Source: Phycisphaeraceae bacterium (GTDB taxonomy: Bacteria; Planctomycetota; Phycisphaerae; Phycisphaerales; Phycisphaeraceae). Taken from it: a stretch of DNA of 64,000 nucleotides. Shown here piece by piece: positions 9,070 to 47,058 of this stretch; within the stretch, counting starts at the first letter, position 1; the number at the start of each line of letters is the position of its first letter. The stretch is from positions 1-64,000 of the forward strand of contig PBAS01000017.1 of the NCBI GenBank assembly GCA_002716625.1, given 5' to 3'. A program made the position numbers and the translations under genes. Below the pieces are notes generated by a model, which saw only the letters and a program-made list of their open reading frames with translations, was not told the origin of the DNA and made no database searches.

Positions 9070-11448
9070 ATGGTTAGGTATGAACATTGGATCACACGCG
9101 GGTTTGAATCATTTCGCCGCGGTACGTTTGGAAATGCAGGGCAAAACCTTTATGTATCCCGGCGCGGTATTCTGCAGCGAATATTTCTGCATGATCTGAA
9201 TCAAGATGGATATATCGAGGCCATCTTTTGTAACTGCCAGGATCAATTGGAGGCGCCGGATATCTATGTTTATACCGATCCACTCAATAGCCATGATCGC
9301 ATTGAACTTCCTGCCGACGGCGCGTTAAGTGGCGCCGTGGCTGATCTTAATGGCGATGGGTATGATGATCTGGTTCTGGGCATGGAGTACAACGGTGCTT
9401 CAACTGAACTGCATGCTTTCATCTACTACGGCTCAGCCGAGGGTTTTCGTGAGCAGCATTGTGTGCATATTCCCGTTCCGCAATGCCAGTCCGTAGCAAT
9501 TGGGGATTTCGATGGTGATGGTCGGCCTGACCTTGCATTTATCTCGAAGGGTAAGCTGCGGGTGTTTTATCAGACTGAATTAGGATTTGAACCCTCAGCA
9601 TTCACAGATCTTGATATTAGTGGCGACCATTTAGCCAGTGCAGATTTGGATTGTGATGGTTATGCGGATCTCTACATCATTTCAGATCGCCTCCCGCCGC
9701 GAGTCCTGTGGGGCGGTAAGGGTGGCCTTAGCGTGTCACGAAAAAGCGAATACAGGATTGAAGGCGAAGTCGGATCGTTTTCAGAACAAGCCGACGAAAC
9801 GATGGAGCAAGAGCGTGTAGGGCTAACACCTTTGGCGCGTACCAGCTGTCTAGGAAATGAACATCACCTTTTCGTGGCCTTTTCAGACCATGTTTATCTT
9901 GTTCCAATCGCAGCGGATCGGTCTTTCGGTCGCCGTCTGAAATTCTTCTGTCCTGCAAGCGTATCTGTGGCGAGTGGTGATTTCAACGGTAACGGTGAAC
10001 AGGATCTGGTGTTTGCGACACGTGAAAAAGCAGGTAAGCATGAGCGGTCCTGGATTTATTGGGGTGCTCCTGATGGGTTTAGCGAGGATCGACGCACCGA
10101 GCTTGACACATTTTGCGCGTGTGATGTGACCGCAGATGACCTCAACGGCAGCGGTTGCGATGATATTATTATTTGTCAAAACCAAACCCCTGAAACATAT
10201 TCAGTGAATTCACGGATTTTTTGCGGTTGCAAAGAGGGCGTTAATTTAACTCCAGTTGAGCTGCCCACCGAAGGCGCGCGTCTCGCACTAGTTGCCAAAG
10301 GTGATAGTCAGGTTCATCCGCATGTGATTTTCATAAATCGATGGGGCCGAACCGGGCGCAATGTGATCAAGCCAGTCATTTACTTCGGTGGCAGTGATGG
10401 ATTTTCAGTCGATCGCTGTCAATACCTTGAAGGTATTGGTGCGGCAACCGCGCTGCCGTGTGATTTTAATGATGATGGCCGGCCGGATCTTGTGTTTGCA
10501 AATAGTGCTGAAAATGCCCAGTACCTGGACCCGGGTACCTATTGTTACCTGCAGGGTGACACTGGATTTTCAGGTGAACCAAGTGTGGTATTGCCTTCAA
10601 AGCATGCATGGGGTCTGGCTGCTGCTGATATTGATCGAGATGGTTGCCTGGAACTGGTTATTATCCCCTTTATCGGTGAGGAGGTTCTCATTTACAGGTC
10701 ATCTGGCGATGGCTTTGACACAGGAAATCCTCAGCGTATACGGCTGATCGAGAATGGAAAAGCTTATAAGTCTTCATATCGTGGGTGTCTTGCGGATTTA
10801 AACAATGATGGCTATCTCGATTTGGTTCTTGGCCAGCTTGGTAGTGACCGCTGCTTTGTGCTCTGGGGTGGTCCGGATGGTGCATTTAGCCAGAAAAAAC
10901 TTACACGCATTGCCGGGCATTCGGTTACAGCGAGCCTTGCTGCGGATTTTAACGAAGATGGCTGGGTAGATCTTGTGATTGCCAATCACAAGATCATGGG
11001 GGATCACAAGGGTGATTCCTTTGTCTTGATGAACGGCCCTGATGGATTTGATCCACGGCCTGTTACGCGTCTGCCGACAATGGGCCCACACGGGATGATT
11101 CCCGTTCAACCAGGCAACCAGAAGGATCGTGGTCCTGAAGAATATTATATTTCAGAGCCCCATGAACTGTCTGGGAATGCATGTGTTCAAAAGATCGAAT
11201 GGGAAGCAGATGTGCCGGCAAAGACATGGGTGAAAGCCCAGATACGTCTCGCCGACAGCGAAAATTTGCTGGACAGCGCAGTTTGGCAGGGTCGGGATGG
11301 CGCAGGGAGTTGGCTTGATTGTGGTGAAGAGGCGCATCACATCCATCATGAAGGTGGTTGGGTTCAATATCGACTTGCACTGGGTGCAATCAATAGTGGG
11401 AGTACGCCGCGCATTCAAGAAGTGAAGGTGACTATCTCTAAGCTTTGA
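9070..11448 (+). CDS. FG-GAP/VCBS repeat protein without a visible signal peptide
   Basis: About 792 residues with roughly ten Ca2+-binding FG-GAP loops of the D-x-(N/D)-x-D/N-G type, for example DLNQDGYIEA, DLNGDGYDDLVLG, DFDGDGRPDLAF, DFNDDGRPDLVFA, DLNNDGYLDLVLG and DFNEDGWVDLVIA. They predict an integrin-like beta-propeller, or two consecutive propellers. The last ~90 residues look like a separate beta-sandwich. A GTG at 8944 would give a longer protein but overlaps the divergent FAD gene; ATG at 9070 begins the conserved part. Neither start gives a Sec or Tat signal, which is odd for this usually exported class. The partner or ligand is unknown. Confidence 0.82.
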   Translation: MVRYEHWITRGFESFRRGTFGNAGQNLYVSRRGILQRIFLHDLNQDGYIEAIFCNCQDQLEAPDIYVYTDPLNSHDRIELPADGALSGAVADLNGDGYDDLVLGMEYNGASTELHAFIYYGSAEGFREQHCVHIPVPQCQSVAIGDFDGDGRPDLAFISKGKLRVFYQTELGFEPSAFTDLDISGDHLASADLDCDGYADLYIISDRLPPRVLWGGKGGLSVSRKSEYRIEGEVGSFSEQADETMEQERVGLTPLARTSCLGNEHHLFVAFSDHVYLVPIAADRSFGRRLKFFCPASVSVASGDFNGNGEQDLVFATREKAGKHERSWIYWGAPDGFSEDRRTELDTFCACDVTADDLNGSGCDDIIICQNQTPETYSVNSRIFCGCKEGVNLTPVELPTEGARLALVAKGDSQVHPHVIFINRWGRTGRNVIKPVIYFGGSDGFSVDRCQYLEGIGAATALPCDFNDDGRPDLVFANSAENAQYLDPGTYCYLQGDTGFSGEPSVVLPSKHAWGLAAADIDRDGCLELVIIPFIGEEVLIYRSSGDGFDTGNPQRIRLIENGKAYKSSYRGCLADLNNDGYLDLVLGQLGSDRCFVLWGGPDGAFSQKKLTRIAGHSVTASLAADFNEDGWVDLVIANHKIMGDHKGDSFVLMNGPDGFDPRPVTRLPTMGPHGMIPVQPGNQKDRGPEEYYISEPHELSGNACVQKIEWEADVPAKTWVKAQIRLADSENLLDSAVWQGRDGAGSWLDCGEEAHHIHHEGGWVQYRLALGAINSGSTPRIQEVKVTISKL

Positions 11449-14829: not shown

Positions 14830-17262
14830 TCATCCTGCTGTACGAAACTCCATATGCCGAAGTTTTCGTAATTGGATTAAAGTAAAGCCAATCAACATGA
14901 GGCCGACGATCCAGGCCATTGCCGTGGCGACACCAAAACGAAGATAGAAAAATGCCGTCGAAAAAATATGCAGGCCAACCACCTCGGTACGACCATATCC
15001 TGTCCATGGGCCACCACCGGTCATGGCCAGGATGAAGTTGGCTGACTGAAAAGATGCAATGACTGCACCGATCAGATTGATCAAAATAAGCGCTTTAAGT
15101 GATGGTAGCGTGATGCGTGTAATGCGGGTCCAGATGCTGGCGCCGTCAATACTCGCCGATTCGTAGAGTTCGTCCGGAACGGTTTTGAGTGCCGCTAGGT
15201 AGATCAAGCATCCTGGCCCCATGCCGGCCCAGACAACCGGCACCACGCAGCACACCAGTGCCCAACGCGGTTCGGCTAGCCAGTTGGTGTGTCCATCCAG
15301 CCCCACGGCATTCCTTAATTCATTGATCAGACCGAAGGGGCCGAAGAAGGTCTTCCAGAGAAAGATTACAAGCACCCCGCTGATCACGGCGGGGAGATAA
15401 TAAATGCTGCGAAATATGATTTTTCCACGGGGGACCTCTTGGAGAAGAATAGCCAGGATGATTGGCGCTGGGAAACCAAAAAGCAATACGAGAAATGCAT
15501 ATTTCAAACCAACCCAAACCGACATCCAGAAGGCACGGTCAAAAAGGATTTCTTCAAAATTCCCCAAGCCAACCCATTTGGCATCACCTGTGACGCGGTA
15601 GTCTTGAAATGCCATGGCTCCACCATGAAGAAGTGGCCAGTACTGCCAAAGAGCAATTGTTCCAACTCCCGGGACCAGTAAAAGGTAGGCAACCTTATAT
15701 TTCCGAAATTGCCATCCCCCTTTTCCGGCTCCGGAAAAGAATTCAGGCGGCGCAAAGATGCGCCAGATGTAAAAGAAACCAGCGCCAAAGATGGCGGCAA
15801 TGCCAATAGTGACCAGTAGTGCCACGCGTCGTCGAAACTGCCGTTCCTCAGGGTGTACAAGGCCAAGCATCTTTTCATTGGCTTCAGAAACACCGTGACG
15901 GAGAATATCTTTTATTTTGGCAAGAGCAGCTTCGTCATCGCCCTTGTTGATGGCATCCTGGATTTCATCGTCTCTTGCAATTGCTCCCAGGGGCTTAGTC
16001 ATCCAGCGATAGATCTGCTGGCTGTTGCGACCGTATGGCGCTGGTTTACCATTCTTGACGGATTCCTCGAAAGTTTTTCGCCAACTTTCAGGAATGAGCC
16101 TTACGTATTCGTGATAGCCGAACTTTTCCAAAAGTTGGGGTTGAACAAACCGGCCGTAGCCATTTTTAATCATGGTTTCTACCATGATTTTTTGCGCCGT
16201 TGGGCGCATCCAAAAGGAAATGTATTTCCATGCTGCTTCACGTACGCGCGGGTCTTCTATTCCTGAGTGGATGGCCAGCATCGTTGCGTTTAGATCACTG
16301 CCGCGTACGCCTGCGGGCCCTAGCGGCATGGGGCCAATCCCATGCAGTTCAGGGTTTCGGATCTGTGTCATCTGATCAAAGCCGAGCCGAATTTGAAACA
16401 TGCCGATCTTACCGGCAAACCAAACAAGAAAGCGGTCAGCTTCTCCATAGGTCACCCCCATCAACTTCTTTTCAACCATCTCGCCGTTGATTTCATATTG
16501 CTTTAGCCAACGTTGGCGCCGTATTTTGGTGAAAAACAATGCTGCTTGTGCTGCCGCATCGGAGTCAAACGTGCATCGCCAGTTTCCCTCCGCATCCTGA
16601 GACATCGCTTCGCCGCCGGCTGACCAGAGATAAGGAAGCCAATGATAGGAACCTTCATCGCCAAATCGCAGTGCAATTCCAGATCGCTGTTTACCGGGAT
16701 CGGTCAGCTTGCGTGCAAACATCATCAGCTCATTCCAGTCGTTTGGCGCCCGGTCCGGGAGTCCGGCTTCTTGGAAAAGATCTCGCCGATAACACAGCGC
16801 ACGCACTTGGAGTTGGATGGGCCAGCAGTAGATGTGTTCTTTGTCGTCTGGGGGACCGCGTCGTTTGATGACGGGCCAGAGCTGATTGGGAATCTGTTTG
16901 CGTTCCTCATCAGTCACGGTGGTGATCTGATCAATCGGATAGAGGAATCCTTGTTCAATATATGTCGAGGCATTATGAAAACGGACTTCGAATACGTGTG
17001 GTGCGATATCACCGGCAATTTGCATCAAGGGTAAGAATTCAGCAGCGCGATCTTCGATCATGATGCCGGTCGATCGAAGGACTTTAATTTGTGGGTGTAG
17101 TCGGTGAAATTCCGCCAGGATCGCTTTGGCCACTTGGACTTCAATGGTGGTAAATGCTGCCGAGTTGATGTCGGGCAGGCCATGAACACGGAGCGTGATT
17201 GGCCGGTCTGCTAGCGGTGTTCCGAACGCATGCGTTGCAATTAACACAGCCATCAACCACAT
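14830..17262 (-). CDS. Solute-binding protein fused to ABC permease (MalF/UgpA-like)
   Basis: About 810 residues from ATG at 17262. The N-terminus is a signal-like helix (MWLMAVLIATHAFGTPLA), followed by a family-1 extracellular solute-binding domain (about 20-430; ALCYRRDLFQEAGL, NDWNELMMFA and KYISFWMRPTAQ are typical). A linker and single TM (about 478-501) lead to a MalF-type six-helix permease (about 520-803) with an EAA loop (ESASIDGASIWTRI). Binding protein and channel are normally separate genes, so here the receptor is tethered to the pore. The frame extends upstream to 17418, but that overlaps the prepilin-like gene and precedes the signal peptide. Second in the operon; substrate probably an oligosaccharide. 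Confidence 0.88.
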   Translation of the reverse strand: MWLMAVLIATHAFGTPLADRPITLRVHGLPDINSAAFTTIEVQVAKAILAEFHRLHPQIKVLRSTGIMIEDRAAEFLPLMQIAGDIAPHVFEVRFHNASTYIEQGFLYPIDQITTVTDEERKQIPNQLWPVIKRRGPPDDKEHIYCWPIQLQVRALCYRRDLFQEAGLPDRAPNDWNELMMFARKLTDPGKQRSGIALRFGDEGSYHWLPYLWSAGGEAMSQDAEGNWRCTFDSDAAAQAALFFTKIRRQRWLKQYEINGEMVEKKLMGVTYGEADRFLVWFAGKIGMFQIRLGFDQMTQIRNPELHGIGPMPLGPAGVRGSDLNATMLAIHSGIEDPRVREAAWKYISFWMRPTAQKIMVETMIKNGYGRFVQPQLLEKFGYHEYVRLIPESWRKTFEESVKNGKPAPYGRNSQQIYRWMTKPLGAIARDDEIQDAINKGDDEAALAKIKDILRHGVSEANEKMLGLVHPEERQFRRRVALLVTIGIAAIFGAGFFYIWRIFAPPEFFSGAGKGGWQFRKYKVAYLLLVPGVGTIALWQYWPLLHGGAMAFQDYRVTGDAKWVGLGNFEEILFDRAFWMSVWVGLKYAFLVLLFGFPAPIILAILLQEVPRGKIIFRSIYYLPAVISGVLVIFLWKTFFGPFGLINELRNAVGLDGHTNWLAEPRWALVCCVVPVVWAGMGPGCLIYLAALKTVPDELYESASIDGASIWTRITRITLPSLKALILINLIGAVIASFQSANFILAMTGGGPWTGYGRTEVVGLHIFSTAFFYLRFGVATAMAWIVGLMLIGFTLIQLRKLRHMEFRTAG

Positions 17263-35371: not shown

Positions 35372-36175
35372 ATGGCTGAACGTCGTCATGTAATGGATAT
35401 GTATCGGCTCGACGGTCGGGTCGCCCTGGTCACAGGCGGTACACGTAATCTGGGTTTTGATATGGCCGAAGCTCTCGGTGAAGCAGGGGCAAGCCTTGCC
35501 ATTACCAGCCGAGAATTGGATAAGGCCCAGATCGCGGCAAAACGTTTATGCAAGGCAACCGGACTGACCGCAAAGGCCTATGCGTTGGATGTCACTGACG
35601 AGCAAGGCATTGTTGAAGTGATTGCCAAGGTGATTCGCGACTTTGGCACACTTGATATTCTGATCAATAATGCAGGCAATGTGCAGAACTCAGCCCCGTT
35701 CGAGCAGCGTGCGCTTGAGGATTGGAATTACACTTTTGCCGCTAATTCAACGGGTACATTTCTATGTGCCAAAGAGGCGGCCAAACACATGATGGCACGA
35801 GAAACGGGTACCATCATTAACATCGCATCCATATCTGGCATGATTGGTAAGGAACGCAGTGTTTATGAAGGTACAGAAATGGTTGGTGTGACGATTGACT
35901 ATAGTGCGGCCAAGGGAGCGGTTATTAACATGACACGTGATATGGCCTGTTACCTGGGGCCGCACGGTATTCGAGTGAATTCAATTAGCACCTCTGGATT
36001 TGAACGAGGTCAGCCCGAATCCTTTCTGAAACGGTACAAGGCCCAGCATCCACTTGGGCGACTTGGTGAAGATGGCAAGGATATCAAGGGCGCTGTCGTC
36101 TATCTGGCGAGCGATGCAGCTGCGTGGGTAACCGGGCACAACCTGGTGTTGGATGGCGGGTTCAGTGCATGGTGA
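35372..36175 (+). CDS. SDR-family oxidoreductase
   Basis: 267 residues from ATG at 35372, which has a GGAGGA site six bases upstream. Classical SDR: VTGGTRNLGFDMAEALG (glycine motif), LDILINNAGNVQNS, the Ser in NIASISGMIGKE, the catalytic Tyr and Lys in YSAAKGAVINMTRD, and VTGHNLVLDGGFSAW at the C-terminus. The layout is that of gluconate/2-keto-sugar-acid dehydrogenases (KduD/IdnO-like), suggesting sugar-acid oxidation, which is inference. Shares a 49-bp divergent control region with the PhyH gene. Confidence 0.88.
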   Translation: MAERRHVMDMYRLDGRVALVTGGTRNLGFDMAEALGEAGASLAITSRELDKAQIAAKRLCKATGLTAKAYALDVTDEQGIVEVIAKVIRDFGTLDILINNAGNVQNSAPFEQRALEDWNYTFAANSTGTFLCAKEAAKHMMARETGTIINIASISGMIGKERSVYEGTEMVGVTIDYSAAKGAVINMTRDMACYLGPHGIRVNSISTSGFERGQPESFLKRYKAQHPLGRLGEDGKDIKGAVVYLASDAAAWVTGHNLVLDGGFSAW

Positions 36176-45990: not shown

Positions 45991-46015
45991 TATAAATGGG
46001 TGTTACCCATTTATA
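45991..46015. terminator. Perfect 11-bp hairpin at the end of selD
   Basis: TATAAATGGGT (45991-46001), GTT, ACCCATTTATA (46005-46015). The right arm covers the last codons and stop of selD. The position between two convergent genes fits a bidirectional terminator; no U-run follows on either strand, though the stem itself is AT-rich at its base. Confidence 0.55.
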
Positions 46016-47058
46016 ACGAGCGGTACATCCTGTTTTTCCGTAACGCATCCAATGACACAGGCTGCATCAGCTCCATCCATCTTGGCTTGTTTCACCAGTT
46101 TGTCCGCATTTTTCTTAGGTGTGCTGAGCAATAATCCACCGGATGTCTGCGCATCGTAAATCAGTTCAAGCAGCACCATTGATGGCTGGCCTTCAATTCG
46201 AGTAAGTGGTGCGGTGTGGCTTTGATTTGTTTTTGTCGCGCGCGTTTGGTGGCCAGATTCAGCAAGCGCAAGGACCCCTGGAAGGATCGGTAATTGATCA
46301 AGTTCAATCACCAAGGTGACGTTGCTGGCCTGAGCCATTTCCGTCGAATGTCCGGCAAGGCCAAAACCTGTCACGTCAGTGGACGCATGTGCGCCGGCAT
46401 TCTTTGCCGCTTGGGCGCCTGCATGATTAAGCTGGACCATGCTGGCGATAGCAGCATCAAGTGTAGCGGTTGGACACTTGTTGGCTTTGAAAGCTGTCGT
46501 GACGTAGCCGGTTCCCAGCCCCTTGGTCAATATCAGTACATCGCCGGGTGTTGCTTCTTGGTTGGTTAGAAGATCATTTGGGGACACGACACCTGTAACC
46601 GCCTGTCCGTACTTGATCTCTGTATCGCGAACCGTATGCCCGCCGATGATCACGGCGCCCGCATGACGGGCACATTCAGATCCTCCTTTAAGGATGTCAC
46701 TAAGGATGCCGAGGTCCAATTCGTCGTCAGGAAAGGAGACGATATTGAGTGCGGTGGTTGGCTTGCCACCCATGGCAAACACGTCGCTCATTGAGTTGGC
46801 CGCGGCGATTTGACCAAAGATAAAAGGATCGTCAACCAGCGGTGGAAAGAAGTCGACCGATTGCACAATTAGCAGATCATCGCGCAAGCGAAAGACACCC
46901 GCATCACTAAAGTTATCAACTCCGACGACCAATCTATCGTTGCTGAACATCGGCAAGTCCCGCACAACCTGTGCGGTTCCCTCTTGGGATAATTTGCCCG
47001 CTCACCCTGCGCAGTTGGCGTAATCGACGAGCCGTTTCTTTTTTCCAAACAAGGCCAT
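46003..47058 (-). CDS. selD: Selenide, water dikinase, selenocysteine-containing (in-frame TGA)
   Basis: Makes selenophosphate from selenide and ATP for selenocysteine and selenouridine synthesis. Reading from ATG at 47058 through the TGA at 47004-47002 as Sec gives 351 residues, the usual length, with the active-site sequence ANCAG-U19-AGKLS; the Sec/Cys followed by Lys (K22) is the catalytic pair (C17/K20 in E. coli). Without readthrough, translation would have to begin at GTG 46965 and lose the active site. The body is canonical: DFFPPLVDDPFIFGQIAAAN, SDVFAMGGKP, DVTGFGLAGH and YDAQTSGGLLL. A SECIS-like hairpin follows the TGA. A TAA 12 bases above the ATG fixes the start. SelA, SelB and tRNA-Sec are not in the window. 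Confidence 0.88.
46952..47004 (-). promoter_or_regulatory. Bacterial SECIS-like element downstream of the selD TGA
   Basis: On the minus strand, 31 bases after the TGA, CCGCAC and GTGCGG (46960-46965 and 46971-46976) form a perfect 6-bp stem with loop AGGTT, carrying G at loop position 2. A lower stem of GGCAA just after the TGA (46994-46998) with TTGCC (46952-46956) can close the structure. Bacterial SECIS elements bind SelB through a short stem with a G near the start of the apical loop, within a few tens of bases of the UGA, which this satisfies. Confidence 0.7.

Follow-up and report, generated by a model that had tools for sequence, protein, structure and literature searches.

Selenophosphate synthetases (SelD) that themselves contain selenocysteine (Sec) are among the commonest bacterial selenoproteins. 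A survey from 2006 included 38 Sec-containing bacterial SelD proteins (PMC1794560). Other SelD proteins, such as that of E. coli, carry Cys in place of Sec, and hence need neither the UGA codon nor a SECIS element. Among planctomycetes, the Porphyra-associated strains P1 and P2 possess the full Sec machinery, and the FmdB protein of P2 is a selenoprotein (PMC4807772). Here we describe a selD locus of a Phycisphaeraceae bacterium, contained in a stretch of 64,000 nucleotides (hereafter the window) on contig C17. The gene almost certainly encodes a selenophosphate synthetase in which a TGA codon specifies Sec, as judged from sequence comparison.

The selD reading frame

With TGA translated as Sec (U), positions 46003-47058 of the minus strand form a single frame from ATG to TAA, with just one TGA inside. 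A sequence-only reading of the window had claimed that the selD frame stays open upstream of an apparent GTG start, except for one TGA at the catalytic Sec/Cys site, and the 351-residue translation confirms it. The features of the coding sequence are as follows.

46003..47058, minus strand: selD, 351 codons, start ATG at 47058, stop TAA at 46003-46005, with one in-frame TGA
47002..47004, minus strand: TGA codon 19, predicted to be read as Sec, aligned to the E. coli catalytic Cys
46993..46995, minus strand: Lys-22 codon, partner residue three positions past Sec, invariant in the SelD alignment
46963..46965, minus strand: GTG, the start expected from a standard-code gene caller, but not considered the true one

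The predicted protein scored 345.3 bits (cut-off 125; E 3.1e-103) with TIGR00476, the equivalog model of SelD, over residues 9-317, a match that takes in much of the region upstream of the GTG, and it contains two AIR-synthase domains (Pfam). The residue context around codon 19 is YANCAG-U-AGKLSQ. In an alignment with E. coli SelD (PDB 3u0o), residue 19 lies opposite the Cys of GCGCK, with Lys three residues on, as the same reading had anticipated for a Sec or Cys column at this position; the columns of U19 and K22 are both invariant in the SelD alignment. Standard annotation would lose residues 1-31 of SelD, including the catalytic residue.

Conservation of the TGA codon

Among 151 genomes of the order, 14, counting the present one, encode a full SelD with one TGA. 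The TGA column is identical in all 14, and the residues that precede it are present in every one (14/14). Homologues thereby keep the N-terminal residues, the 31 whose absence from close relatives had been named as evidence against a Sec-containing SelD. SelA scored above its cut-off in 15 of the 151 genomes, namely the 14 with TGA-containing SelD and G067; the co-occurrence of the two is strong (Fisher p 7.6e-19 over 151 genomes, kinship not corrected for). In G067 (contig C109, L031), a Cys-type SelD without TGA is encoded at a distance of about 2 kb from selA. Another genome (G003, contig C86) has, alongside its TGA copy, a further SelD-like copy that is uninterrupted and lies in a frame of 763 codons.

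The closest named relatives of this SelD, at 62% identity, belong to two metagenome-assembled genomes (MAGs) filed as Planctomycetaceae and have TGA at the same site. Across 80 SelD loci from many phyla, the Sec/Cys site is TGA (Sec) in 59 and Cys in 20.

The SECIS element

Downstream of the TGA, within the coding region, two helices were recognized.

46960..46976, minus strand: upper hairpin of the putative SECIS element, CCGCACA-GGU-UGUGCGG, loop at 46967-46969, 32 nt past the UGA
46985..47001, minus strand: lower helix, the weaker of the two in the consensus, pairing alignment columns 4-8 to 16-20, with 3/5 pairs formed in the window

The 60 nt that begin at the UGA align without gaps over the 14 genomes. 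The upper stem, of 7 bp with a GGU loop, is paired in 95.9% of cells of this alignment, and covariation, with both bases changed, is seen in four of the seven pairs. The covariation score was reached by none of 500 shuffles (kinship not corrected for), and shifting the pairing partner by one to three columns destroys the signal. At the base of the stem, CC/GG in the window stands against UU/AA in most relatives, and the encoded amino acids shift along with it (Thr and Arg in the window, Val and Gln in most relatives), so that pairing has been kept across amino-acid replacements. Synonymous codons in the stem are nearly frozen: the Val-31 codon is GTT in 13 of 13 cases, as against approximately 11% GTT among the other Val codons of these genes. 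The hairpin is more divergent in two of the 14 loci (L025 and L028).

A published bSECIS model requires a stem of 4-16 bp, a loop of 3-9 nt with G in its first two positions, a distance of 16-37 nt past the UGA and an energy of at most -7.5 kcal/mol (PMC13188914). The selD hairpin fits this model (7 bp, loop GGU, 32 nt, -9.6 kcal/mol). When the 14 genomes were searched with a covariance model built on the selD SECIS, the 14 selD elements were retrieved, all remaining matches scoring 23 bits or less.

Sec machinery of the genome

The assembly comprises 3.35 Mb in 83 contigs (88% complete, 0.6% contamination). All three genes that the sequence-only reading had proposed searching for, selA, selB and selC (tRNA-Sec), are present and adjoin one another on contig C67, where ARAGORN identified the tRNA as SeC with anticodon tca; a lack of selB and selC would, by that reading, have refuted the claim. 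Neither ARAGORN nor Rfam searches gave any tRNA or RNA match within the 64-kb window, the tRNA-Sec being on a different contig. A second match above the Rfam tRNA-Sec cut-off (C4:79096-79182) was rejected, since ARAGORN identifies it as tRNA-Ser. In many relatives, selD and selA are located within a few kilobases of each other. The assignment of selD and selABC to one organism rests on the draft assembly, its low contamination and similar G+C content. Taken with the TGA column and the covarying hairpin, these genes support the earlier claim that SelD is itself a selenoprotein.

A second putative read-through gene, fmdB/fhcB

The sequence-only reading had also forecast further UGA-interrupted genes elsewhere in the genome, and one came to light: a match with an internal TGA surfaced on contig C28 in the search for FdhA.

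C28:66239-67567 (L066:4240-5568), minus strand: fmdB/fhcB with in-frame TGA at a Sec/Cys site, SECIS-like hairpin, subunit A adjoining

TIGR03129 (512 bits, cut-off 328) identifies the product as formylmethanofuran dehydrogenase subunit B, and the gene is followed by that of subunit A. The TGA of fmdB lies in the context TSL-U-HGP, which corresponds to TSV-C-HGP in homologues of the Cys type. FmdB proteins 76-80% identical to this one, each with one TGA, are encoded in nine further planctomycete genomes, all from outside the order. Those homologues whose sequence was read directly have a hairpin (7 bp, loop AGUU, 25 nt past the UGA), and its stem shows C/U and U/C exchanges. The fmdB hairpin was absent from the matches of the selD SECIS covariance model in the 14 genomes searched.

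In a tree of 22 FmdB rows, all ten Sec rows lie to the same side of a branch that has full support. The two relatives nearest by SelD have a Cys-type FmdB. It is plausible that the Sec-type fmdB was gained by transfer into this lineage, a point that the tree leaves unsettled. A Sec-type FmdB in a planctomycete has been reported previously (PMC4807772). Standard annotation would split fmdB at the UGA.

Alternative readings of the in-frame TGA

Were the TGA a true stop, a shortened SelD of 320 residues would start at GTG 46965, the frame that is indeed the longest standard-code ORF. Such a protein, however, would have no catalytic loop, neither Sec nor Lys-22, and both the 18 codons before the TGA and the codons from the TGA to the GTG are conserved at the protein level in 13 relatives, while the hairpin past the TGA is conserved at the RNA level. 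We consider this reading very improbable. Less credible again is that the TGA reflects an error of sequencing or a Cys codon recently mutated to a stop: TGT and TGC are one base from TGA, and Cys occupies the same column in other SelD proteins, but recurrence of the same TGA in independent assemblies, those of 13 further genomes of the order and of the two named MAGs, refutes it. The TGA at 59 of the 80 loci from many phyla and the conserved SECIS adjoining it also speak against this reading.

In-frame UGA in two genes of one genome could also mean that UGA is a sense codon throughout, rather than Sec at chosen sites. Yet long frames of the window do terminate at UGA: the one at 14832, for example, follows 862 open codons, with 26 open beyond, and the one at 11446 follows 838, with 37 open beyond. 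Moreover, each of the two read-through sites falls on a known Sec/Cys column and has a SECIS-like hairpin downstream, and the genome has a tRNA-Sec with anticodon UCA. Genome-wide reassignment therefore seems as remote as error or mutation. We hold with high confidence that the locus is the selD of a Sec-decoding planctomycete, in which UGA codon 19 would be read as Sec to give the 351-residue SelD; no observation made here speaks directly against it.

Predicted synthesis and role of SelD

Translation would start at ATG 47058. SelB, carrying Sec-tRNA(Sec) and anchored at the hairpin that lies 32 nt downstream, would decode the UGA at codon 19 as Sec, yielding a selenophosphate synthetase of 351 residues. 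Sec-19 and Lys-22 would then act in the synthesis of selenophosphate from selenide and ATP, and SelA would use this selenophosphate to form more Sec-tRNA(Sec). Because SelA needs selenophosphate for Sec-tRNA(Sec), SelD would depend on its own product. We infer expression, Sec insertion and enzyme activity by comparison.

Other candidate selenoproteins

FdhA of this genome (C83) is of the Cys type (RVCHSPS) and has no internal stop. Candidate FdhA matches with one in-frame TGA were noted in two relatives, L051 (G061) and L062 (G003). Within the genome, no internal stop was found in the ArsS-type radical SAM protein (C68) or in the seven AhpC/TSA matches. SelU was not found, its model matching only a 28-position piece far below the cut-off.

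Scanning the window for long frames that are interrupted by TGA and carry a model SECIS returned selD and two weak cases, at 36173 (plus strand) and 14832 (minus strand). In both, a long frame ends at a TGA beyond which it stays open only briefly, and a hairpin fits loose SECIS rules; these cases are probably due to chance.

In a census made family by family on an 88% complete assembly, FdhA was of the Cys type and a selenouridine synthase was apparently absent. The whole Sec system might be kept for very few clients, perhaps only SelD and the FmdB of the Sec-only clade, a reading that we regard as rather unlikely. If it were true, formylmethanofuran-type C1 metabolism, and not formate dehydrogenase, would maintain Sec here.

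Comparison with known systems

These data add a well-supported lineage that decodes Sec, a trait found in approximately one-tenth of the genomes sampled from the order, together with a SECIS family whose alignment shows covariation. P1 and P2 additionally possess a 2-selenouridine synthase (PMC4807772), which was not found in the genome studied here; P2 is a Rhodopirellula, whereas this genome falls with the Phycisphaerales. E. coli SelD (PDB 3u0o) belongs to the same fold family, its Cys aligned with the predicted Sec. As in Sec-containing bacterial SelD proteins, the putative Sec occupies the N-terminal loop, three residues ahead of a Lys, the SECIS is in the coding region, and selA, selB and selC are encoded in the same genome. 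The present locus differs from known Sec-containing SelD in its CAG-U-AGK motif, its order-specific SECIS and its Planctomycetota host, and we found no difference in kind. The Sec-type SelD described here is a further example of a well-known kind of protein and leaves the general view of selenium biology unchanged.
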